58,329 nt of DNA from a virus. Position numbers and translations under genes: made by a program. Where the stretch lies: the IMG/VR virus record IMGVR_UViG_3300027833_000059, positions 1-58,329 of that record; one strand, 5' to 3'. Shown here piece by piece: positions 35,012 to 56,982 of the stretch. The notes beneath the pieces were generated by a model. It ran no database searches, had not been told where the DNA came from, and saw only the letters and a list, made by a program, of their open reading frames with translations. Positions within the stretch are counted from its first letter, which is position 1. Each line of letters starts with the position of its first letter.

Positions 35012-35043
35012 TTTGGTAGATATGAAGAAATGTTGTATCTTTA
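35012..35043 (+). promoter_or_regulatory. Early promoter of structured RNA copy A
   Basis: TTTG 35012-35015, 20-bp spacer, TATCTTTA 35036-35043; start site predicted at the first stem. Confidence 0.78.
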
Positions 35044-35046
35044 CAC

Positions 35047-35109
35047 TGTAGGTGCGAAAGTGATACGGGTCTGGATAGAGATATTCGAAAGAGTAGACTC
35101 CAACCTACA
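35047..35109 (+). ncRNA. Structured RNA family, copy A
   Basis: P1 TGTAGGT/ACCTACA closes a junction holding P2 (GC-GAAA-GT), the fixed core GATACGGGTCTGG, P4 (GGATA-GAGA-TATTC with a GNRA loop) and CGAAAGAGTAGACTCC, whose AGAC(T)CC pairs with GGGTCT as P3. It is transcribed against all neighbouring genes. No reading frame. Function unknown. Confidence 0.75.
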
Positions 35110-35166
35110 ACAAAGTCAAATAATTTACACTAAAAAATAAGGTACTAAATTAGTACCTTATCAATC

Positions 35167-35337
35167 TTAAACTCTATAGCTAATATGTTCTTCTAATGGT
35201 TCATACTCTACCTCAGTGTACGAATAACAATTAATTTTTTCATCCTTTAATAGAATCTCACTAACTTCACTAATTGTCTTATCAGACTCAACTAATATTA
35301 ATTGTTTACATTCAGTTAAAATTTCAAATACTTTCAT
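35167..35337 (-). CDS. Small hypothetical protein (56 aa)
   Basis: MKVFEILTECKQLILVESDK then acidic (TEVEYEPLEEHISYRV). Promoter TATATTTG at 35366-35373; a palindrome AAGGTACT/AGTACCTT near 35138-35158 follows its stop and can end both this gene and RNA copy A. Confidence 0.7.
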   Translation of the reverse strand: MKVFEILTECKQLILVESDKTISEVSEILLKDEKINCYSYTEVEYEPLEEHISYRV

Positions 35338-35423
35338 ATGTTTTTGTTTTAATTATTCTACCTTACAAATATACTAAAAATAAATTAACCTACCTAATTT
35401 TAGATAGGTTAATTTTAAATTAT

Positions 35424-36224
35424 TTATATGTTAATTATGAAGTCGTTAGTTTCAACATTTTCTTTATTAACACCCTTGGTTCCTTTACCCGTCATAAGCT
35501 TATATTTAAGTCCTACAATAACGTTTTGTTCATCTAAGAAACGTAAGTCTGTTTCATCTCCATTGATAACCTTAAAACCTTTGTATTCACTTGGTAATTC
35601 ACTTCGTTTACTCATTGCAAATACCATTGAAACGTTATAACCTTTATTTAACATTTCAAACGACGTTTTATCATTGTCTTCTGCTCTACTAAACGTCAAA
35701 TGATAATTACTAGGTAACTTTTTTCTTAATCTACTATCAATTTTAGTATAATCATAAAATTGTATACCTGGAAATAGTTCGAATATATTCTTATTATCTT
35801 TATCTTTGTATCTAATGTTCTCAAATGGAACATCACTAGTACCATTTAAACGAATAGCAAACTTTTTATATCTTAATACCTTACCATTTAAAGATAGTTG
35901 CTCTAAACCTTTAATTTTAGTATGAGTATTAACTATTTTAGTAATTTCATTATATAACTGTTCCATAAAACCTACCATATTATCTAAAAAATATTCAGTT
36001 TTATTTATTTTACCTTGTTGTACGTTATCAAAACGAGCCGCACCGCTATTGAATAGACAAGCCTTAGCACAACCTTTACTTGCCTTAGCACAAAGGTTAA
36101 CACCCTTAGAGTTTTGCTTATGTGGTGCTAAATACATAATGTAAGTAGTGTAACCTACTTTTTCACCCTTAATAGTTTTTGCATTGTTAGTACTTAATAA
36201 ATTCTTAGGAATTGTGTAGTTCAT
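35424..36224 (-). CDS. GP88-family protein
   Basis: 266 aa. Recognised from the GP88 pattern known in mycobacteriophages and others: GVNLCAKASKGCAKACL (C45, C52, C56), KTEYFLDN near 75, RLNGTSDVPFENI at 125-137 and FPGIQFYDYTK at 151-161. The Cys cluster could hold a metal or Fe-S centre, but no activity is established for the family. Promoters: -7 box 36253-36260 and the conserved upstream element e at 36293-36353. Confidence 0.88.
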   Translation of the reverse strand: MNYTIPKNLLSTNNAKTIKGEKVGYTTYIMYLAPHKQNSKGVNLCAKASKGCAKACLFNSGAARFDNVQQGKINKTEYFLDNMVGFMEQLYNEITKIVNTHTKIKGLEQLSLNGKVLRYKKFAIRLNGTSDVPFENIRYKDKDNKNIFELFPGIQFYDYTKIDSRLRKKLPSNYHLTFSRAEDNDKTSFEMLNKGYNVSMVFAMSKRSELPSEYKGFKVINGDETDLRFLDEQNVIVGLKYKLMTGKGTKGVNKENVETNDFIINI

Positions 36225-36292
36225 AATATAAGGTTTTAATTGTTCGACAAGTCAAAGATACAACCATTTATTGGATATACAAAACTTTTTAT

Positions 36293-36353
36293 TAATTATT
36301 TTCTTATTTATAATGATTCTAAGTGTTGACAATAAGGCACCATGACAAATTTA
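36293..36353 (-). promoter_or_regulatory. Conserved upstream promoter/leader, copy e
   Basis: TAAATTTG (36346-36353, minus) followed by TCATGGTGCCTTATTGTCAA and ACACTTAGAATCATTATAAA; same element as copies d and f. Confidence 0.7.
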
Positions 36354-36388
36354 CGAAAAATAAATGAGAATACAAAATAAAAACAAAA

Positions 36389-36414
36389 AAAGATGAGACC
36401 TTAAACTCATCTTT
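36389..36414 (-). terminator. Intrinsic terminator
   Basis: Stem AAGATGAG/CTCATCTT, loop ACCTTAAA, T-tract on the minus strand; ends the 267-aa gene. Confidence 0.85.
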
Positions 36415-36428
36415 TTTCTGAACAAAAC

Positions 36429-37232
36429 TTAAACGAACAACTTAACTTTTTCTTTAATCTCTTCTACTGTATATTTATCAGTATTATATTTTTTATTTAA
36501 TCCTTTAACTCTTCTTTCAGCATTCTTTTTATTAGCATATTGTAAATAAGGTCTACTACTATACCTATAACCATTTCGTGTTCTCTTAACAAAATAATCA
36601 TAATCAACCTTTATTGTGTAATACTTATCTACTTCAATTAAATTCTTTACTTTTGGTACTCTTGGAAAGTATCTTTTTCTAATCCATTTTGGACTATCTT
36701 TTAACATACCTCTAAATTCTATTGTAGGATATACATTAGTATCTTTAAATATCTCGTTACATTCAGCTACATACCTTAATAACTCTTCTTTATTTGTAAC
36801 TCTTTCACTTACATAATTACTAACAATAGTTCTATTATATGTATTAGTTACTACAATACTTACTCCAACTTCATTTAACTGCTCAATAGTTAAGGCTTTT
36901 TTAATACCAGTTTTAAATATACCCTTAAACATACCAAAAGTTGTATTATGTGTTCCCTTACCTCCAATAGCTATTGCACTAAAAAAACCAAAAGACTTAT
37001 CATTATACTCAGTATAACGTTTTTTATAACTATCTCTTATATTATCAGCGTAAGATAATAATTCATTTTCACTATATAATATTTGAGTAGTATCTCCAAC
37101 ACTTAATTTTGACCAATCTCTTACTCTTGCACCACTGTACTCGAATAAGTTACTTGACCCTATTATTACCATTGGTATAAACTTGTCTTCTACTTTAATA
37201 AATTGTTTATCGTAAATTAAATCGTAACTCAT
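36429..37232 (-). CDS. Hypothetical protein (267 aa)
   Basis: Begins MSYDLIYDKQFIKVEDKFIP; a middle GFFSAIAIGGKGTHNTTFGM and a strongly basic C-terminal third (KWIRKRYFPRVPKVK, KNAERRVKGLNKKY). I recall similar N-termini from plasmid and phage proteins of unknown function. Promoters: -7 box 37261-37268 and element f at 37301-37361. Confidence 0.78.
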   Translation of the reverse strand: MSYDLIYDKQFIKVEDKFIPMVIIGSSNLFEYSGARVRDWSKLSVGDTTQILYSENELLSYADNIRDSYKKRYTEYNDKSFGFFSAIAIGGKGTHNTTFGMFKGIFKTGIKKALTIEQLNEVGVSIVVTNTYNRTIVSNYVSERVTNKEELLRYVAECNEIFKDTNVYPTIEFRGMLKDSPKWIRKRYFPRVPKVKNLIEVDKYYTIKVDYDYFVKRTRNGYRYSSRPYLQYANKKNAERRVKGLNKKYNTDKYTVEEIKEKVKLFV

Positions 37233-37300
37233 AATAAAAGGTTTTAGTTATTGTTCTCTACAAAGATACAACCAATTTCTGGATTAACAATGGGAATTCT

Positions 37301-37361
37301 TAATTATTTTCTTATTTATAATGATTCTAAACGTTAACACTAAGGCACCATGACAAATTTA
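37301..37361 (-). promoter_or_regulatory. Conserved upstream promoter/leader, copy f
   Basis: TAAATTTG (37354-37361, minus) followed by TCATGGTGCCTTAGTGTTAA and CGTTTAGAATCATTATAAAT. Relative to copy d the AGTGT/ACACT hairpin keeps pairing through wobble changes. Confidence 0.7.
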
Positions 37362-37446
37362 CAACAAATAAATGAGAATACAAAATAAAATGGACCCTTT
37401 TTTTATATTAGGACCCATTTTCAACTTAACCACAAGTTATATTTTA

Positions 37447-37725
37447 TTAATGGTAGCTAAAACCAACTTCTGTTATATAAAATTTACCACCATTATCCCT
37501 CAAGTAATAAAGGTCTAAATCGAATTTTACTAATTCATTCTCAACTGATGTTATCAATTGGTCATCTAAGTTAGGTAACTCATCTTTAACACACTCTTCT
37601 CTCTCATAGTCAGAAACTTTAACCTTACAACCGAATAGTTGTGATAGTTTTGTATTTAGGTCATGAGTAGTAAATCTACTACCTACTAATGATTCTGTTT
37701 TATTTGTGATGTCTTGATTTGTCAT
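37447..37725 (-). CDS. Small hypothetical protein
   Basis: 92 aa, acidic (MTNQDITNKTESLVGSRFTT); no family. Promoter -7 box 37742-37749. Confidence 0.72.
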   Translation of the reverse strand: MTNQDITNKTESLVGSRFTTHDLNTKLSQLFGCKVKVSDYEREECVKDELPNLDDQLITSVENELVKFDLDLYYLRDNGGKFYITEVGFSYH

Positions 37726-37779
37726 AGTGTTTTGTTTTAATCAAAGATACAACTAATTATTGGTTCTACAATACAATTT

Positions 37780-38103
37780 TTAATTTATTTTTTCACTAAT
37801 AACATCATCATAACCCATATCTACATATTTTCTAGCTAAAACATCTGCTTTATCTTTAGGTAAGTGAAAGTCATTAACCTCAACACCACCAACCCATACA
37901 GTATAAAGGTCAATTAGTTCCAAAGTATTTCGATTAATACTACATAATCTACCACTTTGCTCTTGTATTATAGGTTCTCCAGCTATACTTCTATTTAATA
38001 GAATACCAGTAACTTTTATATCATTGGTCATACCACAAGTTCCCATTGCAGTACATACTTTACCTACCATTTTTTCTAACTCTTGTTGTGATATGAATTT
38101 CAT
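37780..38103 (-). CDS. Hypothetical protein (107 aa)
   Basis: Two Cys near the N-terminus (KVCTAMGTCGM) and a C-terminal VWVGGVEVNDFHLPKDKADV segment. No family. Promoter -7 box 38128-38135 lies inside the end of the upstream gene. Confidence 0.75.
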   Translation of the reverse strand: MKFISQQELEKMVGKVCTAMGTCGMTNDIKVTGILLNRSIAGEPIIQEQSGRLCSINRNTLELIDLYTVWVGGVEVNDFHLPKDKADVLARKYVDMGYDDVISEKIN

Positions 38104-38122
38104 TTGTCTTGTGGTTTATGTT

Positions 38123-38701
38123 CTATACAAAGATACAAAAAAAATTTGGATTAATAAAACTTTTTTGACTATTTAATAGTTTAAATATTTCATTATATAT
38201 CTCTTCTCCCAATTGAGTCTTAGTAAAGTCAGCCATACTACCATGTAAATTTTCTTTATAACCTAACTCCTTATGCATATGCTCATCTATTTTTGGCATA
38301 TCGATTATTAATTCACCATTACATAAGCATACCCAATCAAAAAATAGTAATGGGTTTTTAGTCTTAAAACCATCTTGGAGTACCTTTTGTGATTCTCTAG
38401 TTAAATTAGACTTAATAGCCGCAGTGTGTATATTTTCTTTCCAATAGATAGCATTATTTGTAATTAGATATTCCATACAAATCTCTCTACCATACTTTAA
38501 ACTTGTCTCCCTTATATCTTGGAATACATCTTTAGTTGTAGGTATTTCTATTTCTACAATATCATAAGCTAGGGTTTTTTTATAACCCTCACCCTTAATG
38601 AAATATCTTAACGTATCATTAATTCCAAATACCTCTTGTGGGAATTTTAATGGTAAGAATAATTTTCTACTTCTGACGTAATAAGCTTGAATCTTTTGCA
38701 T
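38123..38701 (-). CDS. Hypothetical protein (192 aa) whose end overlaps the next promoter
   Basis: Begins MQKIQAYYVRSRKLFLPLKF; alpha/beta, no family. The last dozen codons (KSFINPNFFCIFV) are the promoter sequence of the 107-aa gene translated, so there is no terminator between the genes. Promoter -7 box 38725-38732. Confidence 0.75.
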   Translation of the reverse strand: MQKIQAYYVRSRKLFLPLKFPQEVFGINDTLRYFIKGEGYKKTLAYDIVEIEIPTTKDVFQDIRETSLKYGREICMEYLITNNAIYWKENIHTAAIKSNLTRESQKVLQDGFKTKNPLLFFDWVCLCNGELIIDMPKIDEHMHKELGYKENLHGSMADFTKTQLGEEIYNEIFKLLNSQKSFINPNFFCIFV

Positions 38702-38773
38702 TGTCTTGTGGTTTATGTTCCTTACAAAGATACAACATTATTTTGATTCTACCAAATATATTTAAATAAAAAA

Positions 38774-38795
38774 AGGTGGGACCTTAAACCCACCT
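38774..38795 (-). terminator. Intrinsic terminator
   Basis: AGGTGGG/CCCACCT stem with ACCTTAAA loop and a minus-strand T-tract; the same hairpin occurs at 40217. Confidence 0.85.
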
Positions 38796-38822
38796 CTTTT
38801 CTGAACAAAAACAAACCTATTA

Positions 38823-39011
38823 TTATTCTTTAATCTCAAAACCTAATTCTTTTAACTTTTCAGTTAATACTTCTTCTATAACATTTTCAGTCGTAACCTC
38901 ATCTTCATCATCAGTATCGGTACAATCTTTAATTACCCCTTCAAGTACTAACTTATTAGTTATTTCGTATTTTATCTCATTGATAAAATCTTTACTTATT
39001 GTATTTTCCAT
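38823..39011 (-). CDS. Small acidic protein
   Basis: 62 aa (MENTISKDFINEIKYEITNK, then DTDDEDEVTTENVIEE). It keeps the usual AAGGAACATAAACCACAAG leader, but the -7 box and most of the spacer are missing, so it depends on the 116-aa gene upstream. Confidence 0.72.
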   Translation of the reverse strand: MENTISKDFINEIKYEITNKLVLEGVIKDCTDTDDEDEVTTENVIEEVLTEKLKELGFEIKE

Positions 39012-39036
39012 TTGTCTTGTGGTTTATGTTCCTTAT

Positions 39037-39387
39037 CTATTTTACCAAATTGTGTTCTCCATCGAACACTACACCATTCTTACCTCGATATACAACTAAA
39101 TCTCCACCCGCATACATCCAAGGATTTTCATTTTCACTACCATTTTTTTTGATATAATCAATATCAGCAGTAGTGGTGTACTCTAAACTATTTCCATCCT
39201 CTTGTTCAATACCAATTAAAACCTTAACGATACTATCACTTATTTCTAATTCAGCACCAACCCATAAAGGTTTTTTCTTTTCTTTTTCAACTTCTTTATA
39301 ATCCCAAGACTTACTATCTAAATAAGCCTTTAATTCTGCTAATTCTTCTCTTGAACAATTATGTGTATTTATTTCAATATTTTTCAT
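39037..39387 (-). CDS. Hypothetical protein (116 aa)
   Basis: Begins MKNIEINTHNCSREELAELK; beta-like second half with PLWVGAELEISDS. Its last codons (LVK, stop) are built from the remains of a promoter -33 box (TTTGGTA). Promoter -7 box 39412-39419. Confidence 0.75.
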   Translation of the reverse strand: MKNIEINTHNCSREELAELKAYLDSKSWDYKEVEKEKKKPLWVGAELEISDSIVKVLIGIEQEDGNSLEYTTTADIDYIKKNGSENENPWMYAGGDLVVYRGKNGVVFDGEHNLVK

Positions 39388-39430
39388 TTGTCTTGTGGTT
39401 TATGTTCCTTACAAAGATACAACTAATTAT

Positions 39431-39634
39431 TTAATCTACCAAATCTTTTTCCAATGAATTGAAAATTTCATAACATTTTTCATTAATTTCATCATCGGTC
39501 ATTGTTCTATTATTATTCCAAATATAAAAACACTTACTTTCTAACCTTGAACAAAACTTAATATACTTACCATTATTAGTGGTAATTAAGGATATTTGAT
39601 GTTCCAAGAAAAATTTAAAATTAGTTGAATACAT
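39431..39634 (-). CDS. Small hypothetical protein
   Basis: 67 aa (MYSTNFKFFLEHQISLITTN); third gene of a three-gene unit, following a stop by one base. No family. Confidence 0.7.
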   Translation of the reverse strand: MYSTNFKFFLEHQISLITTNNGKYIKFCSRLESKCFYIWNNNRTMTDDEINEKCYEIFNSLEKDLVD

Positions 39635-39635
39635 A

Positions 39636-39815
39636 TTATTTAGCTCTTGTGATTACTTTATTATTTATACGTGTACTTTCCCCTAGTTCTAAACTCATAA
39701 GTTGCTTTAATGAAGTTTCAGAAGAGTATCTTAACCCATGTGATGTCCATAAAGATGTACTACCACTCCTAGTGAAAAACTTATCCTTTAATTGATTATG
39801 ATAAAAGTCTGACAT
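39636..39815 (-). CDS. Small hypothetical protein (59 aa)
   Basis: MSDFYHNQLKDKFFTRSGST then SLWTSHGLRYSSETSLKQLM; Ser-rich. Middle gene of the unit. No family. Confidence 0.65.
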   Translation of the reverse strand: MSDFYHNQLKDKFFTRSGSTSLWTSHGLRYSSETSLKQLMSLELGESTRINNKVITRAK

Positions 39816-39816
39816 A

Positions 39817-39936
39817 TTATTTTCTTTTACGTTTTAGTTTCCTTTTTAATCTTCTTTTTTCACGACCACACATAATTGGTTCTTGCTCTTTAATTCTTAC
39901 ATCTTTATATGGGTCTGTTATTTTGTAACTTTTCAT
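39817..39936 (-). CDS. Highly basic micro-protein (39 aa)
   Basis: MKSYKITDPYKDVRIKEQEP then CGREKRRLKRKLKRKRK: twelve Lys/Arg in the last 15 residues, like nucleic-acid or ribosome-binding tails. First gene of the unit; promoter -7 box 39961-39968 and the CCACAAGACAAATG start context support it. Confidence 0.65.
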   Translation of the reverse strand: MKSYKITDPYKDVRIKEQEPIMCGREKRRLKRKLKRKRK

Positions 39937-39960
39937 TTGTCTTGTGGTTTATGTTCCTTA

Positions 39961-40010
39961 CAAAGATAATAAAAATTCCCTTACCAACCTAATGATAAGG
40001 GAAATATTTT
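39961..40010 (-). promoter_or_regulatory. Terminator-promoter cassette
   Basis: CCCTTA/TAAGGG hairpin with the -33 box in the loop, TATCTTTG at 39961-39968; near-identical twin of 34651-34700. Confidence 0.8.
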
Positions 40011-40139
40011 TTAATGTCCACCAGTAAATGTTATTTCAATTCCACCATTCTTTTCTTCGGCTACAAAAGTAACACCACTCTTGATAAATCCTAATAACAT
40101 GTCGTTGAAAGTTTCTGTTGATACGAATAAAGTTTGCAT
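40011..40139 (-). CDS. Small hypothetical protein (42 aa)
   Basis: MQTLFVSTETFNDMLLGFIK then EEKNGGIEITFTGGH. Complete cassette: -7 box 40168-40175 upstream, terminator hairpin downstream. Confidence 0.62.
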   Translation of the reverse strand: MQTLFVSTETFNDMLLGFIKSGVTFVAEEKNGGIEITFTGGH

Positions 40140-40216
40140 AATAAGTTGTTTTAGTTATTGTTCTCTACAAAGATACAACTAATTATTGGTTCTACCTAAT
40201 AAAATGCAATAAAAAA

Positions 40217-40238
40217 AGGTGGGACCTTAAACCCACCT
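40217..40238 (-). terminator. Intrinsic terminator
   Basis: AGGTGGG/CCCACCT hairpin, T-tract on the minus strand; duplicate of 38774-38795 including the following bases. Confidence 0.85.
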
Positions 40239-40264
40239 CTTCTCTGAACAAAAACAAACCTAAT

Positions 40265-40471
40265 CTAAATCTTAATTTCTTTATTTTCCAATTCGTCTAA
40301 CTTGACGATTGAATATACGTATAATGCAGTACCAATACCAACAAATAACCACATTAAATAAGATAGTACATCTACCTTTAATATCATTTCACTTTCAAAG
40401 ATGATGAAATAAAAACCTACAAAGGTTAAAATCATTCCTACTATCATAGTTGTAAAATACTTATCTTTCAT
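40265..40471 (-). CDS. Two-helix membrane protein (68 aa)
   Basis: Hydrophobic segments MIVGMILTFVGFYFIIF and LSYLMWLFVGIGTALYVYSI with a short acidic loop; charged C-terminus. No family. Promoter -7 box 40500-40507. Confidence 0.75.
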   Translation of the reverse strand: MKDKYFTTMIVGMILTFVGFYFIIFESEMILKVDVLSYLMWLFVGIGTALYVYSIVKLDELENKEIKI

Positions 40472-40535
40472 AATATTAAGTTTTAATTGTTTGACACTTC
40501 AAAGATACAACCTTTTTTTAGTTCTACCAAATAAT

Positions 40536-40757
40536 TTATAATAAACTTTCTATTGGTTTAATCTCAATATGCATTCTATCTTCATCACCTCTAATCATAA
40601 TTGTATTAGACGTTACCAATGATACATCACAATTCCATTCCTCATTTAAACGAAATCTACTTAAATTATTATTAACCCAAATTGCAATCTTACTATTTTC
40701 AATCTCTTCATTAAAAAAGAAATGAGCCTTACTTCCGTTAATTATTAATTGTTTCAT
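40536..40757 (-). CDS. Small hypothetical protein
   Basis: 73 aa (MKQLIINGSKAHFFFNEEIE), beta-like. Promoter -7 box 40782-40789. Confidence 0.72.
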   Translation of the reverse strand: MKQLIINGSKAHFFFNEEIENSKIAIWVNNNLSRFRLNEEWNCDVSLVTSNTIMIRGDEDRMHIEIKPIESLL

Positions 40758-40781
40758 TTGTCTTGTGGTTTATGTTCCTTA

Positions 40782-40832
40782 CAAAGATACAAAATAAAAA
40801 CCTTACCACCAAACAATAGTAAGGTTTTTTTT
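40782..40832 (-). promoter_or_regulatory. Terminator-promoter cassette
   Basis: AAACCTTAC/GTAAGGTTT stem and minus-strand T-tract; loop TTTG at 40810-40813 is 20 bp from TATCTTTG 40782-40789. Confidence 0.82.
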
Positions 40833-40834
40833 AA

Positions 40835-41116
40835 TTAATCTACTAATTTTATTTCGTAAGGTATATTTAAATCAGAAACTTCATAATCGTGTAATTCAGT
40901 CTGCATATCAAATTCAACTGTATAATACATTTTAATTGCATTTAAGTTACACCCATCGAAAATTTCATTTACTGTAATGCTACCAACACCTGTTTTAAAT
41001 AGTTGTTCTATTATAGACTTAGCCACACTATTTGCATTTTCCTCAATCTCTTGGTCTTGTCCGTGGTTAAAATACCACTCTAAAAATCTTTCTTTTGTAA
41101 TTGTTAACTTTAACAT
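40835..41116 (-). CDS. Hypothetical protein (93 aa)
   Basis: MLKLTITKERFLEWYFNHGQ, acidic, helical first half. No family. Promoter -7 box 41144-41151. Confidence 0.74.
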   Translation of the reverse strand: MLKLTITKERFLEWYFNHGQDQEIEENANSVAKSIIEQLFKTGVGSITVNEIFDGCNLNAIKMYYTVEFDMQTELHDYEVSDLNIPYEIKLVD

Positions 41117-41143
41117 AATCTTGTTGTTTTATTTGTTCTCTAC

Positions 41144-41188
41144 AAAGATAATAAAAAATCCCTTACCAACCAAATGATAAGGGAATTA
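41144..41188 (-). promoter_or_regulatory. Terminator-promoter cassette
   Basis: CCCTTA (41161-41166)/TAAGGG (41179-41184) hairpin; loop TTTG 41172-41175, spacer 20, TATCTTTG 41144-41151. Confidence 0.82.
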
Positions 41189-41191
41189 TTT

Positions 41192-41434
41192 TTAATAAAC
41201 TGATTCAATCTGAATGCCATCCTCAGTATATAAGTCTTGTGACTCCCAATTAACTGAATAAGATAACTCTCCAGGCTCATATGAGTCGATTAGAGCGACC
41301 ATCTCATCGTCGTCATCACTTACTTCAAATACTTGTGTTCCATCGCATAAGAACTCACCATTTCGATACGGGTGGTTTATTGCAATCTTAAGGTCTTCTA
41401 AAGAATTGATAGTTGTATTCATATTTGCGTACAT
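41192..41434 (-). CDS. Small acidic protein
   Basis: 80 aa (MYANMNTTINSLEDLKIAIN), acidic DDDDEMV stretch. ATG at the fifth codon is an alternative. Promoter -7 box 41463-41470. Confidence 0.72.
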   Translation of the reverse strand: MYANMNTTINSLEDLKIAINHPYRNGEFLCDGTQVFEVSDDDDEMVALIDSYEPGELSYSVNWESQDLYTEDGIQIESVY

Positions 41435-41480
41435 AATAAAAGAGTTTTAAAGTTCGACACTTCAAAGATACAACCTTTTT

Positions 41481-41672
41481 TTAGTTATCACAAGTTTTAT
41501 TTAAAATATCTTTAATATTTAATGGTAATACATCCTTTAATTCTGGCTTAACAAACTCAACTAATGCATCTTTAGGATGATAACTTAATATATCATTAAC
41601 TTGGTTATCTATTGTGGGTGAACTATCATTTAATAGATATCTCTTACCCTCTACCTTAAGAATAGTTAACAT
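41481..41672 (-). CDS. Small hypothetical protein
   Basis: 63 aa (MLTILKVEGKRYLLNDSSPT). Its start overlaps the end of the 66-aa gene by 17 bp, so the two share a transcript. Confidence 0.66.
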   Translation of the reverse strand: MLTILKVEGKRYLLNDSSPTIDNQVNDILSYHPKDALVEFVKPELKDVLPLNIKDILNKTCDN

Positions 41673-41856: not shown

Positions 41857-41884
41857 AATAACTTTTTTATGTAAAGATACAATA

Positions 41885-49651: not shown

Positions 49652-49676
49652 GTCTCATTGTTTTTATTGTTCCTTA

Positions 49677-50026: not shown

Positions 50027-50055
50027 AATCTTGTGGTTTTAATTATTGTTCCTTA

Positions 50056-50104
50056 CAAAGATACAATAAATAATCCTTACTACCTAATATAATAAGGATT
50101 ATTT
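50056..50104 (-). promoter_or_regulatory. Terminator-promoter cassette
   Basis: AATCCTTA/TAAGGATT hairpin, loop TTAGG, TATCTTTG 50056-50063. Confidence 0.8.
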
Positions 50105-50114
50105 TATAATTTAT

Positions 50115-50375
50115 TTAAAACATTTCATATCTCTCTAAGATAACTCTCCCTTTGTATTTCCCCTCTTCTCCGACGTAATCTACAAACTTAAGTAGTGTAT
50201 CATCATTTCTAACGTAAGCATCTTGAGATACCACATCTTTGGCTCTGTTAATCTCTAAGATTTGATTAAGTTCAAACTCAGCTGACTTCTTACTTGAAAA
50301 GTGTCTTGGTGTAAACGCATACTGATTTGTGAAACCATTTAAACTACCACTCTTAACTACATAAACATATCTCAT
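50115..50375 (-). CDS. Small hypothetical protein
   Basis: 86 aa (MRYVYVVKSGSLNGFTNQYA), beta-like start, basic. No family. Promoter box 50405-50412. Confidence 0.73.
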   Translation of the reverse strand: MRYVYVVKSGSLNGFTNQYAFTPRHFSSKKSAEFELNQILEINRAKDVVSQDAYVRNDDTLLKFVDYVGEEGKYKGRVILERYEMF

Positions 50376-50404
50376 AACTATAAGGTTTTAAAATTAGACT
50401 TACA

Positions 50405-50455
50405 CAAAGATAAACAAAATAAACCTTACTACCAAATATAATAAGGTTTATTTAT
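50405..50455 (-). promoter_or_regulatory. Terminator-promoter cassette
   Basis: AAACCTTA/TAAGGTTT hairpin with TTTGG loop; TATCTTTG 50405-50412. Confidence 0.8.
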
Positions 50456-50464
50456 AAATTTATT

Positions 50465-51010
50465 TTATGCGTCTTTATAAAGTCTCCAAGTTAATGATTC
50501 AATATCTAAGGTATCACAAGCAATTTCAATATTACTCATATGAGTCTTAATTTTACGTTCCCATGTATCTTGGTGCTTATTTGCCATTAACAATAAGACC
50601 TCATTAACTTCATCCATTATTAATTTAAATCTTCTATTAAAAGAATCCCCATTAAAATCAACATAAGATACAAAAGGCATACCAACTTTGTTACATAATT
50701 GTTTTAACATTTGTTCTGACATACCAACTTCATCTAATATATGTTCCATATATTCTCCATCAACCTCAATATCTTTTAATATATTAATGACTTTTCTAAC
50801 CTTTGTCCCATAGTCTGAACTAATTATTTCATGTAAGCCAACTGAATGTACATTTAAATCCTTATCTACTACCTTAACATACTTAGTTGGTGTATCATTG
50901 TTAGGTGTAGTTTCCTCAAAAAACTCTACAATAATAACCTCATCATTAGAAGTTAAATTTAAATCTGCCAATGCATCTCCCTTTAATTTTACTCTATCGT
51001 ATTTTTTCAT
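50465..51010 (-). CDS. Hypothetical protein (181 aa)
   Basis: N-terminal beta part (KYDRVKLKGDALADLNLTSN, EVIIVEFFEET) followed by a helical C-terminal half (RRFKLIMDEVNEVLLLMANK). No family. Promoter -7 box 51035-51042. Confidence 0.76.
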   Translation of the reverse strand: MKKYDRVKLKGDALADLNLTSNDEVIIVEFFEETTPNNDTPTKYVKVVDKDLNVHSVGLHEIISSDYGTKVRKVINILKDIEVDGEYMEHILDEVGMSEQMLKQLCNKVGMPFVSYVDFNGDSFNRRFKLIMDEVNEVLLLMANKHQDTWERKIKTHMSNIEIACDTLDIESLTWRLYKDA

Positions 51011-51034
51011 CTTACCTGTGGTTTATGTTCCCTA

Positions 51035-51084
51035 CAAAGATACAACAAATAATCCTTACTACCAAATATAATAAGGATTATTTT
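51035..51084 (-). promoter_or_regulatory. Terminator-promoter cassette
   Basis: AATCCTTA/TAAGGATT hairpin, TTTGG loop, TATCTTTG 51035-51042. Confidence 0.82.
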
Positions 51085-51091
51085 TAATTTA

Positions 51092-51697
51092 TTATACTTG
51101 TGCTAACATTCTATTATAAAACTTTTCTTTAGACGTGTATAAAAAACAATTTCTAATCTTTTCTCCACGATACGTTGAATGAATTGTACTATGTTCATCA
51201 ACTTTTATTACCTCAAGTCTTTTTTGTTGAACCATATAATTTCTAAAGATATAACGTTCTCCATATTTAATTTCTTTTTTAGGTTGAGTTCTACTAATGA
51301 AATCTTCACGATTTTTGTAAATTGTATATCCCAACATTGAACCACTATTACCAATCACATAAGAATAAGATGTCCAACCAACACCTATTGTAAATTTTAT
51401 TTTATCAATTTTACCTCGTTTTAATATAAAATTCTTATATGGGTTATCATTATGATATAAAACATCTTTTCCAATGTTATACTTATTATCTAAAATCTTG
51501 GTAATATCGTTACTAACAAACTTTTTCTTAATATCTTCTAAGTTATTACTACGCGAATAATCGTTTATCCCAAACCTAAGTCTTTCAATTGTTCCATCAG
51601 CTAACAGAGTACCCTCAATAGAAGTTATCGAACCTTGAGTTCTGTTATACTTTAACATTATTCTATCTCCTATATTGAATGGTAATGTAATTTTCAT
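51092..51697 (-). CDS. Hypothetical basic protein (201 aa)
   Basis: Beta-rich, basic (MKITLPFNIGDRIMLKYNRT; GRIDKIKF-like strands; KEIKYGERYIFRNYMVQQKR). Two similar halves, each starting with a GDR/GERY strand, hint at repeated SH3-like barrels. No family. Promoter -7 box 51727-51734. Confidence 0.75.
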   Translation of the reverse strand: MKITLPFNIGDRIMLKYNRTQGSITSIEGTLLADGTIERLRFGINDYSRSNNLEDIKKKFVSNDITKILDNKYNIGKDVLYHNDNPYKNFILKRGKIDKIKFTIGVGWTSYSYVIGNSGSMLGYTIYKNREDFISRTQPKKEIKYGERYIFRNYMVQQKRLEVIKVDEHSTIHSTYRGEKIRNCFLYTSKEKFYNRMLAQV

Positions 51698-51770
51698 AAT
51701 CTTGTGGTTTTAATTATTGTTCCTTACAAAGATACAACTAATTATTGGTTCTACCAAATATTTTAATAGA

Positions 51771-51803
51771 AAAAGGGTACCACTTTGAGATGGGTACCCT
51801 TTT
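51771..51803 (-). terminator. Intrinsic terminator
   Basis: AAAAGGGTACC/GGTACCCTTTT stem; ends the 174-aa gene. Confidence 0.85.
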
Positions 51804-51812
51804 CAGCTCAAG

Positions 51813-52337
51813 CTATATTAATCTATTCTCTCCCTCAATCCAACGTCTGAATGCTATAATAACATCTCCATCAGACCAATTATCTTTATCAGCACATTCT
51901 AAAATGTCCTCAAAACAATATTGTACAATATCTGCTATATTGTTTGGTATATCCATACCAAGATAAGTTATTTTTTGTATGAGTATTTTTTTAACCTCAT
52001 CTTTTTTATTAAAATTTTCAAATTCCTCCCACTCTTCATCTTGAACATCAATATAGAACACCTTATAAGTGTCAAAACCATGTAACGAAACACTTTCTAA
52101 TCCGTTAACAAAAGAATTAAATTCTTCTTTAGTTTGGAACGTGTGGGATTCTAATGAATCATATATGTTATCTCGATTATCTGAAGAACCATCTTGTAAG
52201 TCATCTAATAATTCAGAAACTTTATTTAACTTATAAACGTTATTTTTAACAATATACTTTGTCCAAGAGATTTTACTCTTAAAAGATTCAATCGCTCCGT
52301 AATCATTTCCTTTAGTGTCAATAATAATATATATCAT
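51813..52337 (-). CDS. Hypothetical protein, C-terminal domain shared with the 44493 gene
   Basis: 174 aa from ATG 52337 (MIYIIIDTKGNDYGAIESFK); upstream in-frame codons are promoter. The C-terminal 50 residues match the 162-aa protein 7 kb away; the N-terminal part is different, so the shared domain has been combined with two partners. Promoter box 52367-52374. Confidence 0.76.
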   Translation of the reverse strand: MIYIIIDTKGNDYGAIESFKSKISWTKYIVKNNVYKLNKVSELLDDLQDGSSDNRDNIYDSLESHTFQTKEEFNSFVNGLESVSLHGFDTYKVFYIDVQDEEWEEFENFNKKDEVKKILIQKITYLGMDIPNNIADIVQYCFEDILECADKDNWSDGDVIIAFRRWIEGENRLI

Positions 52338-52366
52338 AATATCTTGTGGTTTAATAATTAATATTT

Positions 52367-52416
52367 CAAAGATAATAAAAATAATCCTTACTACCAAATA
52401 TAATAAGGATTATTTT
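52367..52416 (-). promoter_or_regulatory. Terminator-promoter cassette
   Basis: AATCCTTA/TAAGGATT hairpin, TTTGG loop, TATCTTTG 52367-52374. Confidence 0.82.
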
Positions 52417-52421
52417 ATATA

Positions 52422-52664
52422 TTACCATTCTACAATAATATATTCTGTACCATGACTATTGAAACCAAAAGTTATTTTATAACCCTTTTCTCGCAATAAA
52501 CGTATTGCCAAATCTTTTTCTTGAGGGCTACAAGTAACACCACTACAGTAGTGGGTAATTCTACCACTCTTACTTTTAATAATTTTATCACATACCCTAT
52601 GATAAAATTCTCTTGATACTTCTATCTTACTCTTTGCGTGTTCTTTAGCTGATGGCATCTCCAT
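52422..52664 (-). CDS. Small basic protein
   Basis: 80 aa (MEMPSAKEHAKSKIEVSREF); three Cys, ends HGTEYIIVEW. No family. Promoter -7 box 52694-52701. Confidence 0.73.
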   Translation of the reverse strand: MEMPSAKEHAKSKIEVSREFYHRVCDKIIKSKSGRITHYCSGVTCSPQEKDLAIRLLREKGYKITFGFNSHGTEYIIVEW

Positions 52665-52693
52665 AATATTATTGTTTTAATTGTTCTACACTT

Positions 52694-52744
52694 CAAAGAT
52701 ACAAAAAATAAACCTTACTACCTAACATAATAAGGTTTATTTTA
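52694..52744 (-). promoter_or_regulatory. Terminator-promoter cassette
   Basis: AAACCTTA/TAAGGTTT hairpin, loop TTAGG, TATCTTTG 52694-52701. Confidence 0.8.
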
Positions 52745-52754
52745 TAATACTGTT

Positions 52755-52961
52755 TTATTTAATCTCAATTAATTCATCAAATTTACTATAATACTCACTA
52801 ACTAAATCTTCATTACATAAATTACTAAAACCACTTATACCACCATCACGAATAATAGTATCTATGTAACTATAATCCCCACCTAATATCATTTGCTCAA
52901 TTGTATCAATCTCATCAGAAACTAATCTATCTATAACTTCTTGTCTTGTTAAATCTTCCAT
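52755..52961 (-). CDS. Small acidic protein
   Basis: 68 aa from ATG 52961 (MEDLTRQEVIDRLVSDEIDT). A GTG at 52991 is in frame, but the ATG follows a GATAATTAAAAAAGTGTTA leader that also precedes the 53481 ATG, so it is preferred. Second gene of the 53160 unit. Confidence 0.68.
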   Translation of the reverse strand: MEDLTRQEVIDRLVSDEIDTIEQMILGGDYSYIDTIIRDGGISGFSNLCNEDLVSEYYSKFDELIEIK

Positions 52962-52983
52962 ATCTAACACTTTTTTAATTATC

Positions 52984-53160
52984 CTACTCACTTACTATTA
53001 ATCTTACTTCTCCATCCAATTCGTAACCACTCTGACCTTTACTTGATACTTCAATATTATTAACCCAAAGGTTTACTTCATCATCCCCAATTGGAACTCT
53101 AACATTTACACTCTTATCTTCAATTTTTTGAAGAGCATCTATTAAATCTTGTACACTCAT
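52984..53160 (-). CDS. Small hypothetical protein (58 aa)
   Basis: MSVQDLIDALQKIEDKSVNV from ATG 53160; acidic beta-like remainder. The frame upstream is promoter sequence. Promoter -7 box 53189-53196. Confidence 0.7.
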   Translation of the reverse strand: MSVQDLIDALQKIEDKSVNVRVPIGDDEVNLWVNNIEVSSKGQSGYELDGEVRLIVSE

Positions 53161-53188
53161 AATATATTGTTTTAATTGTTCTACATTA

Positions 53189-53239
53189 CAAAGATACAAA
53201 AAATAATCCTTACTACCTAACATAATAAGGATTATTTTA
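53189..53239 (-). promoter_or_regulatory. Terminator-promoter cassette
   Basis: AATCCTTA/TAAGGATT hairpin, loop TTAGG, TATCTTTG 53189-53196. Confidence 0.8.
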
Positions 53240-53247
53240 TATATTTC

Positions 53248-53481
53248 CTACTCACCAGAACAACCTAAACATAAATCAGTATCATCATCATAACTAATAA
53301 TCTCACCAGAACTAAAACCACCACCACAATTATTACACATATAACCATCATCCAAACTTTCACACTCTTCAATCAAATCACACCTATCAACTAATAAGGC
53401 TTGGTCTATATCTTCATATACTGAATTATCTACCAAATAATCTGCTAACTCAAACTTATTCCAACTACTAAAATCTTTCAT
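53248..53481 (-). CDS. Small acidic zinc-ribbon-like protein
   Basis: 77 aa; YMCNNCGGGFSSG and DLCLGCSGE give two CxxC pairs at the C-terminus, a probable zinc site, after an acidic helical half. Second gene of the 53803 unit. Confidence 0.75.
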   Translation of the reverse strand: MKDFSSWNKFELADYLVDNSVYEDIDQALLVDRCDLIEECESLDDGYMCNNCGGGFSSGEIISYDDDTDLCLGCSGE

Positions 53482-53494
53482 ATATAATACTTTT

Positions 53495-53803
53495 TTAATT
53501 ATCTAACCAACCTAATAAATTAACTGCCTCACCATACTCCAATTCCGAAAGTGAACCACTTATAATTTCACCATTACAACCCTCAGTTATACCAATAGCA
53601 ATATAATCACCACCCTTAATACTCATAACAGCATACTCGTCATAATGAAAATGCTTACACACCTTACTTACTCTTGGTACTTCATTCCTAACCTCAGAAT
53701 CAAAATCGTCAAATTCATCTTGTGTTAAAATAACCTCATCATAACTATTTAAAGCTTGATAAACTGAATCCATTAAATTGTGTACTTCTTTTGTTAAACT
53801 CAT
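53495..53803 (-). CDS. Acidic hypothetical protein (102 aa)
   Basis: MSLTKEVHNLMDSVYQALNS; acidic, ends in LGWLDN. First of two genes. Promoter -7 box 53830-53837. Confidence 0.74.
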   Translation of the reverse strand: MSLTKEVHNLMDSVYQALNSYDEVILTQDEFDDFDSEVRNEVPRVSKVCKHFHYDEYAVMSIKGGDYIAIGITEGCNGEIISGSLSELEYGEAVNLLGWLDN

Positions 53804-53934
53804 AATATATCGTTTTAATTATTATACTTCAAAGATACAACATAAGAAAAGTTCCCACAACTACTTATAGTATGCAAAACAACTTTTTTAATTATCCAAA
53901 TTATTTATGTTAAAATTTTTAACCACGCATTTTA

Positions 53935-54132
53935 TTATAATCCATAATTATATACAAGAAAATCAAATATTTTCTCATCATCCCCAAATAGATTAGATTC
54001 AGGTAAATAATATTGCTTACCTCCATACTCGATACATTTATGGTCATCCATCATTAATTCAACATAATCACAGGATTCATTTTTTCTTACTTTTGTTCCT
54101 CTCTCTGTTAAAAATTCTTTAATTGTCTTCAT
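53935..54132 (-). CDS. Small hypothetical protein (65 aa)
   Basis: MKTIKEFLTERGTKVRKNES; a CxxxxYGGKQYYLPESN segment. No family. Promoter box 54160-54167. Confidence 0.7.
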   Translation of the reverse strand: MKTIKEFLTERGTKVRKNESCDYVELMMDDHKCIEYGGKQYYLPESNLFGDDEKIFDFLVYNYGL

Positions 54133-54242
54133 AATAAATTATTTAATTGTTCTACATTACAAAGATAATTAAACTTATTTAATAATCGTGCAGACTATAA
54201 GTAACACCAGTAAAAATATATTTTAAAATAATTTATATTTTA

Positions 54243-54274
54243 TTTGGTAGAACCAATATAATGTCGTACCTTTA
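54243..54274 (+). promoter_or_regulatory. Early promoter of structured RNA copy B
   Basis: TTTG 54243-54246, 20-bp spacer, TACCTTTA 54267-54274. Confidence 0.78.
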
Positions 54275-54277
54275 CAC

Positions 54278-54340
54278 TGTAGGTACGAAAGTGATACGGG
54301 TCTGGAAATAACACTCCGAAAGAGTAGACTCCAACCTACA
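54278..54340 (+). ncRNA. Structured RNA family, copy B
   Basis: Same fold as copy A: P1 TGTAGGT/ACCTACA, P2 AC-GAAA-GT (A:U replaces G:U of copy A), core GATACGGGTCTGG, P4 GGA/TCC, then GAAAGAGTAGACTCC. Eight T follow at 54343-54352, so this copy may end by P1 acting as a terminator stem. Confidence 0.75.
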
Positions 54341-54371
54341 CCTATTTTTTTTACATACAAAACAAAAAAAA

Positions 54372-54393
54372 GAGCTAGGTAAAAACCTAACTC
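54372..54393 (-). terminator. Intrinsic terminator
   Basis: GAGCTAGGT/ACCTAACTC stem (one mismatch) and T-tract on the minus strand; a relative of 43330-43353. Confidence 0.72.
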
Positions 54394-54426
54394 AATTTTG
54401 AACACAAACAAAACAACTATTATATT

Positions 54427-54531
54427 TTAAAACTCAATATTAATTTTTCTACTCTCAATGTTTTCAACTAAAACACTTTGCAAATAATCAACATCTGTTG
54501 GATTACCAACAAAATCAACATATCCTACCAA
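54427..54531 (-). CDS. Possible 34-aa protein or +1-frame extension
   Basis: An open frame VGYVDFVGNPTDVDYLQSVL and ENIESRKINIEF ends at 54427, starting from TTG 54531 and overlapping the end of the 160-aa gene in the +1 frame. The reading is protein-like, but there is no ATG; either a TTG start, or a frameshifted extension of the upstream protein at AAG-TTT-G. Confidence 0.4.
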   Translation of the reverse strand: MVGYVDFVGNPTDVDYLQSVLVENIESRKINIEF

Positions 54532-54997
54532 ACTTTTTCTTAATCTCTTCTAAGATAACATTCCTATCTCCCTCTTTTAAATCTCCCAATAAATCTAATA
54601 TCATATCATTAGCATTTGAAACATTTAAATCCCTTAAACCACTATCATCACTATCAGCATATGACCAACCTTTAAGCCTATCCTCTAATTCCTTAGAACA
54701 TTCAGCCATAAAATACAAATCAAAACAAGTAGTATCAGTCGCTTCATCCCAACCTATCTCTTCAAAACCATTAGTCTTAACCAATGTCCTAAGATATAAT
54801 GAATTGTCAGAAAACATAATATTATCAACAATTTCAGTTATTAAACCATAAGCACCCACAGAACCATTTTGGTCTAACCAACCACCATACTTAAATCTAA
54901 TTATACTATAACTTTCACTTGTTACGGCTGAAATGATAAAGTCCTTATCCTCTCTTGCTTTTACCCTTAACGTTGTTTTTAATTGTTCTAATCTCAT
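54515..54997 (-). CDS. Hypothetical protein (160 aa)
   Basis: ATG 54997 (MRLEQLKTTLRVKAREDKDF) after the ACCACAAGTAAG leader. Alpha/beta, with FGGWLDQNGSVGAYG-like centre and helical end. No family. Promoter box 55028-55035. Confidence 0.75.
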   Translation of the reverse strand: MRLEQLKTTLRVKAREDKDFIISAVTSESYSIIRFKYGGWLDQNGSVGAYGLITEIVDNIMFSDNSLYLRTLVKTNGFEEIGWDEATDTTCFDLYFMAECSKELEDRLKGWSYADSDDSGLRDLNVSNANDMILDLLGDLKEGDRNVILEEIKKKFGRIC

Positions 54998-55060
54998 CTT
55001 ACTTGTGGTTTTAATTATTGTTCTTAGCAAAGATAATACAAATTATTGAATCTACCAAAT

Positions 55061-55279
55061 TTATTTAAGTAATTCTGAAATATTATATATATCATCTACT
55101 TCCCATGATATATTATCATGCTCACATGTTATCGTCTTTAATTGATAATTTCTACCACCCCTAATAGCATCAGCAGTTAATAAAATAAACGCTTGTATAC
55201 CACCATTACAATTAACAGTTAGTGTATGTTCATATCCACGAACATCCCTAAATAAACCTATGTATGTATTTGTTCTCAT
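55061..55279 (-). CDS. Small hypothetical protein
   Basis: 72 aa (MRTNTYIGLFRDVRGYEHTL), beta-like with two Cys. Promoter -7 box 55310-55317. Confidence 0.72.
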   Translation of the reverse strand: MRTNTYIGLFRDVRGYEHTLTVNCNGGIQAFILLTADAIRGGRNYQLKTITCEHDNISWEVDDIYNISELLK

Positions 55280-55332
55280 CTTACTTGTGGTTTTAATTAT
55301 TGTTCCTTACAAAGATACAACATAATATTGGA

Positions 55333-55662
55333 TTAAACTAATTTTTTCTCTAAAAATTCATTAATTTCATCAAAAAATTCTCCATCCCATTGTCTACCCT
55401 CATTCATTAATTGAAACTCATTCGTAAGTTCCTCAGCTAATTCATATAAACCACCAGTACCTTGACTCTCATACCTATCCAATACCAAAGGCGACTCACA
55501 CTTATCTTGTCTCCAATAATATGTTATCTGAGACACAACCTCAAAATAAGTCTCAACCCAACCATTAAAACATATTTCAGTCGGTAAAGAATTATCACTG
55601 TTCTTTAATGCAAATTCTAAATTCTTAATTTGCTCATTACTACCTTGGAATAATATTTTCAT
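55333..55662 (-). CDS. Acidic hypothetical protein (109 aa)
   Basis: MKILFQGSNEQIKNLEFALK; acidic, aromatic-rich centre (WVETYFEVVSQITYYWRQDK). No family. Promoter -7 box 55694-55701. Confidence 0.75.
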   Translation of the reverse strand: MKILFQGSNEQIKNLEFALKNSDNSLPTEICFNGWVETYFEVVSQITYYWRQDKCESPLVLDRYESQGTGGLYELAEELTNEFQLMNEGRQWDGEFFDEINEFLEKKLV

Positions 55663-55693
55663 CTTACTTGTGGTTTTAATTATTATTATACTT

Positions 55694-55745
55694 CAAAGAT
55701 ACAAAAAATAATCCTTACTACCTAATATAATAAGGATTATTTTAT
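55694..55745 (-). promoter_or_regulatory. Terminator-promoter cassette
   Basis: AATCCTTA/TAAGGATT hairpin, loop TTAGG, TATCTTTG 55694-55701. Confidence 0.8.
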
Positions 55746-55758
55746 AAAATTGTCTACA

Positions 55759-55995
55759 TTAAAAGTAAACTTCGTAACCCTCTACTTTCATTTGAATAAT
55801 ACATCGCTTGACATAGTTTATAGCCTCTTCTGTAACTATATAACCTCTAACACCTTCCTCAAGTTGGTAAGTAATTACGAAATCCTCATCAACTCCCTTA
55901 CCTACTTTATTACCCTCAACTTTAGAATAAAATTCTAATCTACCTTTAATATTTTCTATTGCTCTTGGTGCGAAATAATCTATTGGATAAGACAT
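55759..55995 (-). CDS. Small hypothetical protein
   Basis: 78 aa (MSYPIDYFAPRAIENIKGRL). No family. Promoter -7 box 56021-56028. Confidence 0.73.
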   Translation of the reverse strand: MSYPIDYFAPRAIENIKGRLEFYSKVEGNKVGKGVDEDFVITYQLEEGVRGYIVTEEAINYVKRCIIQMKVEGYEVYF

Positions 55996-56096
55996 AATTT
56001 GTGGTTTTTATTGTTCCTTACAAAGATACAACAAATAATCCTTACTACCAAATAATATACAATAAAAAAATAAATTAAAAATAATCCATTTATTCC

Positions 56097-56127
56097 ATTG
56101 TAGAACCAATAATTATTCGTATCTTTA
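56097..56127 (+). promoter_or_regulatory. Early promoter of structured RNA copy C
   Basis: ATTG 56097-56100, 19-bp spacer, TATCTTTA 56120-56127. Confidence 0.76.
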
Positions 56128-56130
56128 CAC

Positions 56131-56195
56131 TGTAGGTGCTTAATAGCGATACGGGTCTGGAACTAACACTCCGAAAGAGTAGACTCCAACCTACA
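56131..56195 (+). ncRNA. Structured RNA family, copy C
   Basis: P1 TGTAGGT/ACCTACA, P2 GC-TTAATA-GC (full G:C pairs, longer loop), core GATACGGGTCTGG, P4 GGA/TCC, CGAAAGAGTAGACTCC. An opposing promoter at 56234-56241 would read antisense across it. Confidence 0.75.
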
Positions 56196-56233
56196 ACAAA
56201 TCCAGATTAAAATCTCAAACCAAAGCACCAACA

Positions 56234-56241
56234 CAAAGATA
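56234..56241 (-). promoter_or_regulatory. Antisense promoter, GGTGC family copy g
   Basis: Minus-strand TATCTTTG followed by TGTTGGTGCTTTGG, the start block of the GGTGCC family; reads toward structured RNA copy C on the other strand. Confidence 0.5.
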
Positions 56242-56262
56242 CAAAAAAGTTTTTAATAAAAA

Positions 56263-56307
56263 AAATAAATAAGACCCTAATTTTAATTAAAGCCTTATTT
56301 ATTTTAT
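56263..56307 (-). terminator. AT-rich hairpin terminator
   Basis: AAATAAATAAG/CTTATTTATTT arms with T-rich minus-strand tail; follows the 154-aa gene. Confidence 0.65.
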
Positions 56308-56314
56308 CTAATCC

Positions 56315-56779
56315 CTACCCTAATACAAATTGCTTTGCCTTAGCATAAACACCTAACTCTTCCCTAACTTTTGAATCTTTCCTAAAATACTCGTCATAAT
56401 ATCTAACCTTATTAAAATAATTAATATCATACACACCTAATTCACTCATCTTCTCACATACTTCATAACTTAAGAAAAATTGTATGGACTCAACCCTCTG
56501 TAATGGACTTGAACTTAACATACTACCATAAATGTCATCACTGAATAATGTACAACCATTATCATCAACTAATAACCTACCTACACTATAATCTAAACCA
56601 TAATTCATCTTAGGGTCTCTATCTACCTTAAAATACCTTACATCAACATAACCTAAACCATTCTTAATAATCCTACTACTACCATCCATAGTACCAAAAT
56701 GCTCGTATACACCCGATAATAACTCCTTAGCTAATTCAACACTAATCTCATTCGCTACTAATTCCTTTACTAATTTCAT
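56315..56779 (-). CDS. Hypothetical protein (154 aa)
   Basis: MKLVKELVANEISVELAKEL; mixed, with GLGYVDVRYFKVDRD in the centre. No family. Last gene before the non-coding right-hand region; promoter -7 box 56804-56811. Confidence 0.76.
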   Translation of the reverse strand: MKLVKELVANEISVELAKELLSGVYEHFGTMDGSSRIIKNGLGYVDVRYFKVDRDPKMNYGLDYSVGRLLVDDNGCTLFSDDIYGSMLSSSPLQRVESIQFFLSYEVCEKMSELGVYDINYFNKVRYYDEYFRKDSKVREELGVYAKAKQFVLG

Positions 56780-56879
56780 AATATATGTGGTTTTTGTTCT
56801 CTACAAAGATACAACTAATTATTGGATAAACAATAACTTTTATACAAAAAAAAAATAATTTAATTTTTCTCACATATTA

Positions 56880-56911
56880 TTTGGTATATCCAATATAATG
56901 TTGTACCTTTA
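56880..56911 (+). promoter_or_regulatory. Early promoter of structured RNA copy D
   Basis: TTTG 56880-56883, 20-bp spacer, TACCTTTA 56904-56911. Confidence 0.78.
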
Positions 56912-56914
56912 CAT

Positions 56915-56982
56915 TGTAGATGCTTAACAGCGATACGGGTCTGGTACTGAAATAACACCGAAAGAGTAGACTCCAACCTACA
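56915..56982 (+). ncRNA. Structured RNA family, copy D
   Basis: P1 TGTAGAT/ACCTACA (one A-C mismatch), P2 GC-TTAACA-GC, core GATACGGGTCTGG, P4 GGT/ACC replacing GGA/TCC, then CGAAAGAGTAGACTCC. The P4 change is compensatory. Confidence 0.75.

Follow-up and report, generated by a model that had tools for sequence, protein, structure and literature searches.

A family of small structured phage RNAs with a conserved loop, apparently undescribed

In a 58,329-base virus record of IMG/VR (IMGVR_UViG_3300027833_000059; 28.6% GC), which encodes a phage portal and a large terminase subunit and is referred to at its full length as the window, four copies of a small structured RNA were analysed. They were found to belong to a large phage RNA family of ~60-75 nucleotides (nt) that is apparently undescribed and uncatalogued before. 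That the four copies exist and that their fold is selected is virtually certain. Judged by sequence and predicted fold, the family is a new RNA class; its newness lies at this level, and, should the partner turn out to be an already known target, the mechanism may be a variant of an established one. As a structured RNA family without an Rfam relative, it offers a testable handle on host takeover in an abundant, poorly understood phylum.

The covariance model R2 was trained on 44 relatives and zero window copies, and the window was searched with filters off. R2 recovered exactly the four copies with E-values of 2e-18 to 4.6e-13, the next-best match being at 0.67. This implies that the four copies form one family with the relatives from other phages. 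An exact pattern of the full window core, GATACGGGTCTGG, was too strict and gave zero matches elsewhere; the looser pattern GGGTCT-N8-38-GAAAGAGTAGAC revealed ~20 clear relatives among 24 viral matches, and the pattern GRAAGAGTAGACTCCRNC matched at least 120 viral stretches, with a few of the pattern matches being chance occurrences inside genes. Altogether, 144 distinct core-bearing copies were present in the DNA examined, and relatives occurred in well over 100 IMG/VR contigs. An earlier, sequence-only reading of the window had made the family depend on a covariance search finding further copies or significant covariation; further copies and covariation were both found, so that the proposed refutation fails decisively.

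The relatives share, in DNA letters, GGG-Y-hairpin-R-AAGAGTAGACTCC-RN-CCTAC, corresponding to the RNA architecture GGG-Y-hairpin-R-AAGAGUAGACUCC-RN-CCUAC. The short hairpin is variable in sequence and conserved in pairing, its Y:R closing pair directly follows the invariant G, and its 3' flank is the nearly invariant, apparently unpaired AAGAGUAGACUCC-RN-CCUAC with a loop of 13 nt. This loop is the most conserved part of the element, although its invariance is overstated because the patterns used for collecting copies fixed much of it; the stem keeps its pairing only.

Covariation was measured on a MAFFT alignment that was not fitted to the structure. Of the paired cells of the hairpin (P4), 86.8% were standard pairs, and its covariation score was 0.507, as compared with 0.187 for shuffled alignments, where 0/500 reached 0.507, and ≤0.186 for slid structures. 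The closing Y:R pair was C:G in 42 sequences, U:A in 19 and broken in 0; the window copies have U:A. When the hairpin columns were left out of the tree building, Y and R switched jointly on 14/14 branches, and pair 20-35 had 14 compensatory branches as opposed to ≤6 for pairs outside the stem, with both the tree and the shuffle tests handling kinship among phages imperfectly. The top five column pairs by corrected mutual information were exactly the hairpin, in a model-fitted alignment that is hence biased toward it. By these measures, the selected, covarying RNA structure postulated for the window copies was borne out. In the stem, 47 G:U pairs were counted versus 16 A:C mispairs, with a p-value that is inflated by related sequences; the excess indicates that the copy strand is probably the functional RNA. 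Hairpin lengths ranged from 11 to 25 nt and varied freely without restriction to multiples of three, and a protein-coding reading is therefore disfavoured and was rejected.

Several pairings described for the window turned out to be local features. The stem TGTAGGT/ACCTACA, claimed to close the element, is present in the window with one A-C mismatch in copy D (TGTAGAT/ACCTACA); elsewhere, the 5' segment pairs with CCTAC only in a variable, register-shifted manner and weakly above chance overall (z ~2.1-2.5), describing a flexible P1. The proposed P2 pairing does not extend to the family, and the stem GGGTCT/AGACTCC, seemingly implied by the P2/P4 numbering, was rejected, having zero covariation and a U:A pair that is broken in 42/61 sequences. 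A two-state fold by alternative ACTC/GAGT pairing had been suggested for copies A to C; it can form in copies B and C, while copy A shows ATTC/GAGT only, and the ACTC half is not conserved across the family. The core itself is not uniform. A second subfamily, GGGTTCGC..GCGCAGAGGGTAGACTCCRNCCTAC, retains the Y:R pair and the 3' half of the loop, and the copy of Flavobacterium phage immuto has GTAGAC followed by GGGCCGGTACG where others have TCCRNCCTAC, implying that the core tolerates change at its 3' end.

Re-inspection of the sequence confirmed the positions, cores and P4 variation (GGATA/TATTC, GGA/TCC, GGA/TCC and GGT/ACC) of the four window copies, all of which lie on the plus strand. Copy A spans 35047-35109 (R2 match 35056-35124, E = 1.5e-15), with the covarying hairpin at 35070-35088, where U35070 as Y pairs with A35088 as R, and the invariant loop AAGAGTAGACTCC at 35089-35101. 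Copy B spans 54278-54340 (R2 match 54287-54355, E = 3.5e-14), with the hairpin at 54301-54319, the loop at 54320-54332 and a T-run at 54345-54352 that, by its sequence, is a possible terminator tail. Copy C, at 56131-56195 (R2 match 56142-56210, E = 4.6e-13), has its hairpin at 56156-56174 and its loop at 56175-56187; copy D, at 56915-56982 (R2 match 56926-56997, E = 2e-18), has them at 56940-56961 and 56962-56974, respectively. As in copy A, the assignment of the hairpins in copies B to D is based on the family covariation. No tRNA or tmRNA was predicted in the window by ARAGORN.

TTTG/TANNTTTG is the Bacteroidetes promoter consensus (PMC6847099), and a dedicated promoter of this type had been assigned to each window copy. 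This holds for copy A (35012-35043; TTTG at 35012-35015, TATCTTTA at 35036-35043), copy B (54243-54274; TTTG at 54243-54246, TACCTTTA at 54267-54274) and copy D (56880-56911; TTTG at 56880-56883, TACCTTTA at 56904-56911), all on the plus strand; the promoter of copy C (56097-56127, plus strand; TATCTTTA at 56120-56127) has an imperfect -33 box, ATTG instead of TTTG, at 56097-56100. Between 28 and 58 kb of the window, strict TTTG-N17-21-TA(H)(H)TTTR sites numbered 35 on the minus strand, which carries most genes, as against 8 on the plus strand, where three of them belong to copies A, B and D. These figures are well above chance, the mono-nucleotide shuffle expectation being ~2. In the family, a TAnnTTTR box was found upstream of 71/144 distinct copies, and 39 copies of a 113-copy set combine it with a correctly spaced, TTTG-like -33 box. 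Roughly one in two copies thus has a Bacteroidota-type promoter (TTTG/TAnnTTTG) in front of it, regardless of the direction of neighbouring genes, and, as sequence signals, these promoters support stand-alone transcription. T-runs of at least 6 followed 18/71 promoter-led copies, versus a background of 4.5%. In eight contigs (L223, L226, L132, L095, L106, L225, L105, L219), a promoter and a tiny open reading frame (ORF), for example ATG GAT AGA TAG, precede the RNA; these tiny ORFs recall the lambda bar minigenes.

The largest sets of copies per phage record were 9, 7, 6, 6, 6, 5, 5 and 5, some records being near-duplicates. Four copies are present in the window, three in Tenacibaculum phage Larrie and one in immuto; since contigs may be fragments, all copy numbers are minima. 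Larrie and immuto are the two cultured phages found to carry the family, and the closest named relatives of placeable lineages are mostly flavobacterial or Cellulophaga phages; at least some of the carriers, whose genomes reach ~340 kb, infect Flavobacteria-type bacteria. Searches of phages T4, crAss001, DAC15, phi14:2, phi17:2, MaF61, S-TIM5, Mx1 and P12024S gave nothing below E = 0.3, and a weak match in Chryseobacterium phage MA9V-1 did not hold up against the model. Among 297 genomes of one host-type phylum, one genome (G021) matched the model, with three copies on a single contig, and the other 296 gave no match. Most of the 40 genome-contig matches appear to be due to chance; those recognised as real were L045, a contig of a metagenome-assembled genome, and L049, the phage contig also numbered L013. 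Within these searches, the RNA is restricted to phages. A literature search with the core sequence found no paper in the collection searched, and the Larrie paper makes no mention of noncoding RNA in the phage. In the immuto genome, the annotated 99-nt coding sequence immuto26A_125 (MW353175.1, 67454-67552; L176, 2451-2549) covers the RNA on the opposite strand and is possibly a spurious call.

In Rfam 15, the window had 0 matches above the gathering threshold, and permissive searches over the element revealed chance-level matches only, with E above 1; CRISPR-DR families gave nothing above chance, the best match (E 8.1) lying outside the element. In the 148 host-type genomes searched, no array of the core was found. 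Racr anti-CRISPR RNAs are solitary small RNA units encoded by phages that capture host proteins (Camara-Wilpert 2023, PMC10651486). The new RNA resembles them as a small, solitary phage unit, with host-protein capture being only proposed here; Racrs, however, mimic CRISPR repeats, which the new RNA does not match above chance. FopS/GibS are multicopy Bacteroides small RNAs (sRNAs) acting with RbpB; they have a conserved single-stranded segment and are driven by sigmaABfr promoters, and their sequence has been seen in a phage as well (PMC11697453). Multicopy paralogues, Bacteroidota-type promoters and the conserved single-stranded segment are common to both. In contrast, FopS is host-encoded and in Rfam and consists of a 5' single-stranded seed and a terminator hairpin; given the other architecture and the lack of an Rfam match (the presence of the FopS model in the Rfam copy was unchecked), the new RNA was not assigned to it. 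The type III antitoxin ToxI consists of tandem repeats beside a toxin gene, and phage pseudo-ToxI decoys exist. Like them, the new RNA is small, folded and multicopy, and it could neutralise a host protein; its copies, however, were seen as single units at scattered positions, many behind a promoter of their own, and no Rfam match was obtained. The put RNAs of phage HK022 are short structured RNAs at the transcript start, present in more than one copy and acting in cis. They share small size, structure and copy number above one with the new RNA but act on their own transcript, whereas the new copies often face opposite-strand genes.

Tentatively, we favour a phage sRNA that would be made early and would use its invariant loop to capture a conserved and probably host-encoded protein. 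The RNAs would be transcribed by host RNA polymerase early in infection from a small-gene, host-takeover region, as suggested by promoters of the host type and the position of the copies among small, mostly unknown genes. Displayed by the hairpin, the invariant loop would meet a protein that is conserved among the hosts, most likely one of their factors for RNA binding, RNA processing or defence. The RNA may sequester this protein or redirect it, and multiple copies would raise the RNA dose. That the loop has stayed invariant in phages as divergent as these implies that its partner is conserved as well; an invariant loop beside a stem that keeps only pairing, and a copy number of up to 9 per genome, were counted for a protein target. 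With somewhat more reserve, this phage-only class may be a general RNA-based takeover or counter-defence device of very different Bacteroidota phages, acting by loop capture of a conserved host protein. The partner, if found, could point to a host factor of central importance or to a defence system that is widespread.

That the RNA instead acts as a base-pairing sRNA, in which host or phage mRNAs base-pair with the exposed AAGAGUAGACUCC loop, or with 6-8 nt of it, and change in translation or stability as in FopS/GibS, is rather unlikely. Multiple promoter-led copies with a conserved single-stranded segment resemble the seed layout of FopS R1 (PMC11697453), and it is the loop that is most conserved. 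Against this, the window contains no complement of the loop with 0-1 mismatch; the best one outside the copies has 2 mismatches, and the total of 14 corresponds to chance. No recurrent exact match of the core was found on either strand of the 148 host-type genomes, where the exact 13-mer of the loop had single occurrences in six other genomes in unrelated contexts. Complementary 6-7-mers were not enriched at 671 phage translation start sites, a few being depleted. On the basis of these three results, protein capture was ranked above base pairing.

The RNA of a phage-encoded ribonucleoprotein, or a new ribozyme or aptamer with the asymmetric conserved internal loop beside the hairpin as active or binding site, is unlikely. 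A conserved loop with a covarying stem is typical of small ribozymes and aptamers, and the Y:R closing pair, the invariant G and the loop would form a compact core. However, no Rfam ribozyme or riboswitch matched the element, and no consistent same-strand downstream gene, as expected of a riboswitch or cis-acting leader, was found among 133 model matches.

The latter result also bears on a leader or antiterminator that forms the 5' part of a longer transcript and acts in cis on its polymerase or ribosome, in the manner of HK022 put or an attenuator, which we regard as improbable. In its favour, the ORFs on either side run on the same strand as the element in 60/133 model matches, counted with mechanical ORFs, and a mini-ORF lies upstream of the element in some lineages. 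On the other hand, all four window copies and 35/133 matches overall have opposite-strand ORFs on both sides, T-runs follow many copies, and in several lineages the next gene has a promoter-like site of its own in front of it. With these counts, the antisense position regarded as defining in the window does not characterise the family; in the window itself, the neighbours are on the opposite strand as described, but the claimed lack of any reading frame needs correction for copy B, which is overlapped by a 62-aa ORF (54223-54411, minus strand). Highly improbable is a DNA-level repeat or small mobile element, such as a miniature inverted-repeat transposable element or a protein-binding site: the element is multicopy, with a near-identical local duplication in one contig (L219) and a dyad, TTTAGAATNATTCTAAA, following a subset at fixed spacing, but compensatory stem changes, the one-strand G:U bias and promoter placement oppose it, the copies differ in their flanks, and reading them revealed no terminal repeats, no systematic search having been made.

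Several observations weigh against capture of a protein by a stand-alone early RNA. Short seeds or other hosts keep base pairing alive. The early timing is read from promoter type and genomic position, and the RNA itself from sequence, with promoters and T-runs as signs of its transcription. An obvious T-run terminator follows only about one in four of the promoter-led copies. Immediately upstream of the element, other lineages show GATAATAT or TGCTATAC, seemingly sigma70-like -10 boxes, and in some a longer leader with a mini-ORF replaces the adjacent TTTG/TAnnTTTG promoter. The loop can change as well, as evident from the variants AAGGG, GAGGG, TAGGG, GTATAC, GTGGTC and GACGGGCC found by the model.

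The 17-nt dyad TTTAGAATNATTCTAAA lies ~19 nt past the core with near-fixed spacing in L005, L010, L015, L028, L119, L172 and others. It was found within 74 nt of 26/144 copies, as compared with 2% of random stretches, and may be a regulator site, a late promoter or a terminator. Two divergent RNA copies are arranged tail to tail in L171 (7797-7953) and L075 (8740-8908), 13 and 26 nt apart, one copy closing with C:G and the other with U:A.

A second promoter-led repeat, TTTGTNNT-GGTGCCTTNGNGTTA, was observed in the window at 28247 (+), 28935 (+), 31382 (-), 36341 (-) and 37349 (-). Its pattern had 6 matches at these five places, versus 0.63 expected, and three copies run on into TTAGAATCATTATRAATAAGAAAATAATTAA; the longer form of the two plus-strand copies had no match in the viral scan. 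This repeat is possibly another small-RNA or leader family. The region 57000-58080 of the window is ORF-poor and contains plus-strand promoter-like sites at 57037 and ~57162, a mini-ORF and tacacaaatgtgtatata repeats.

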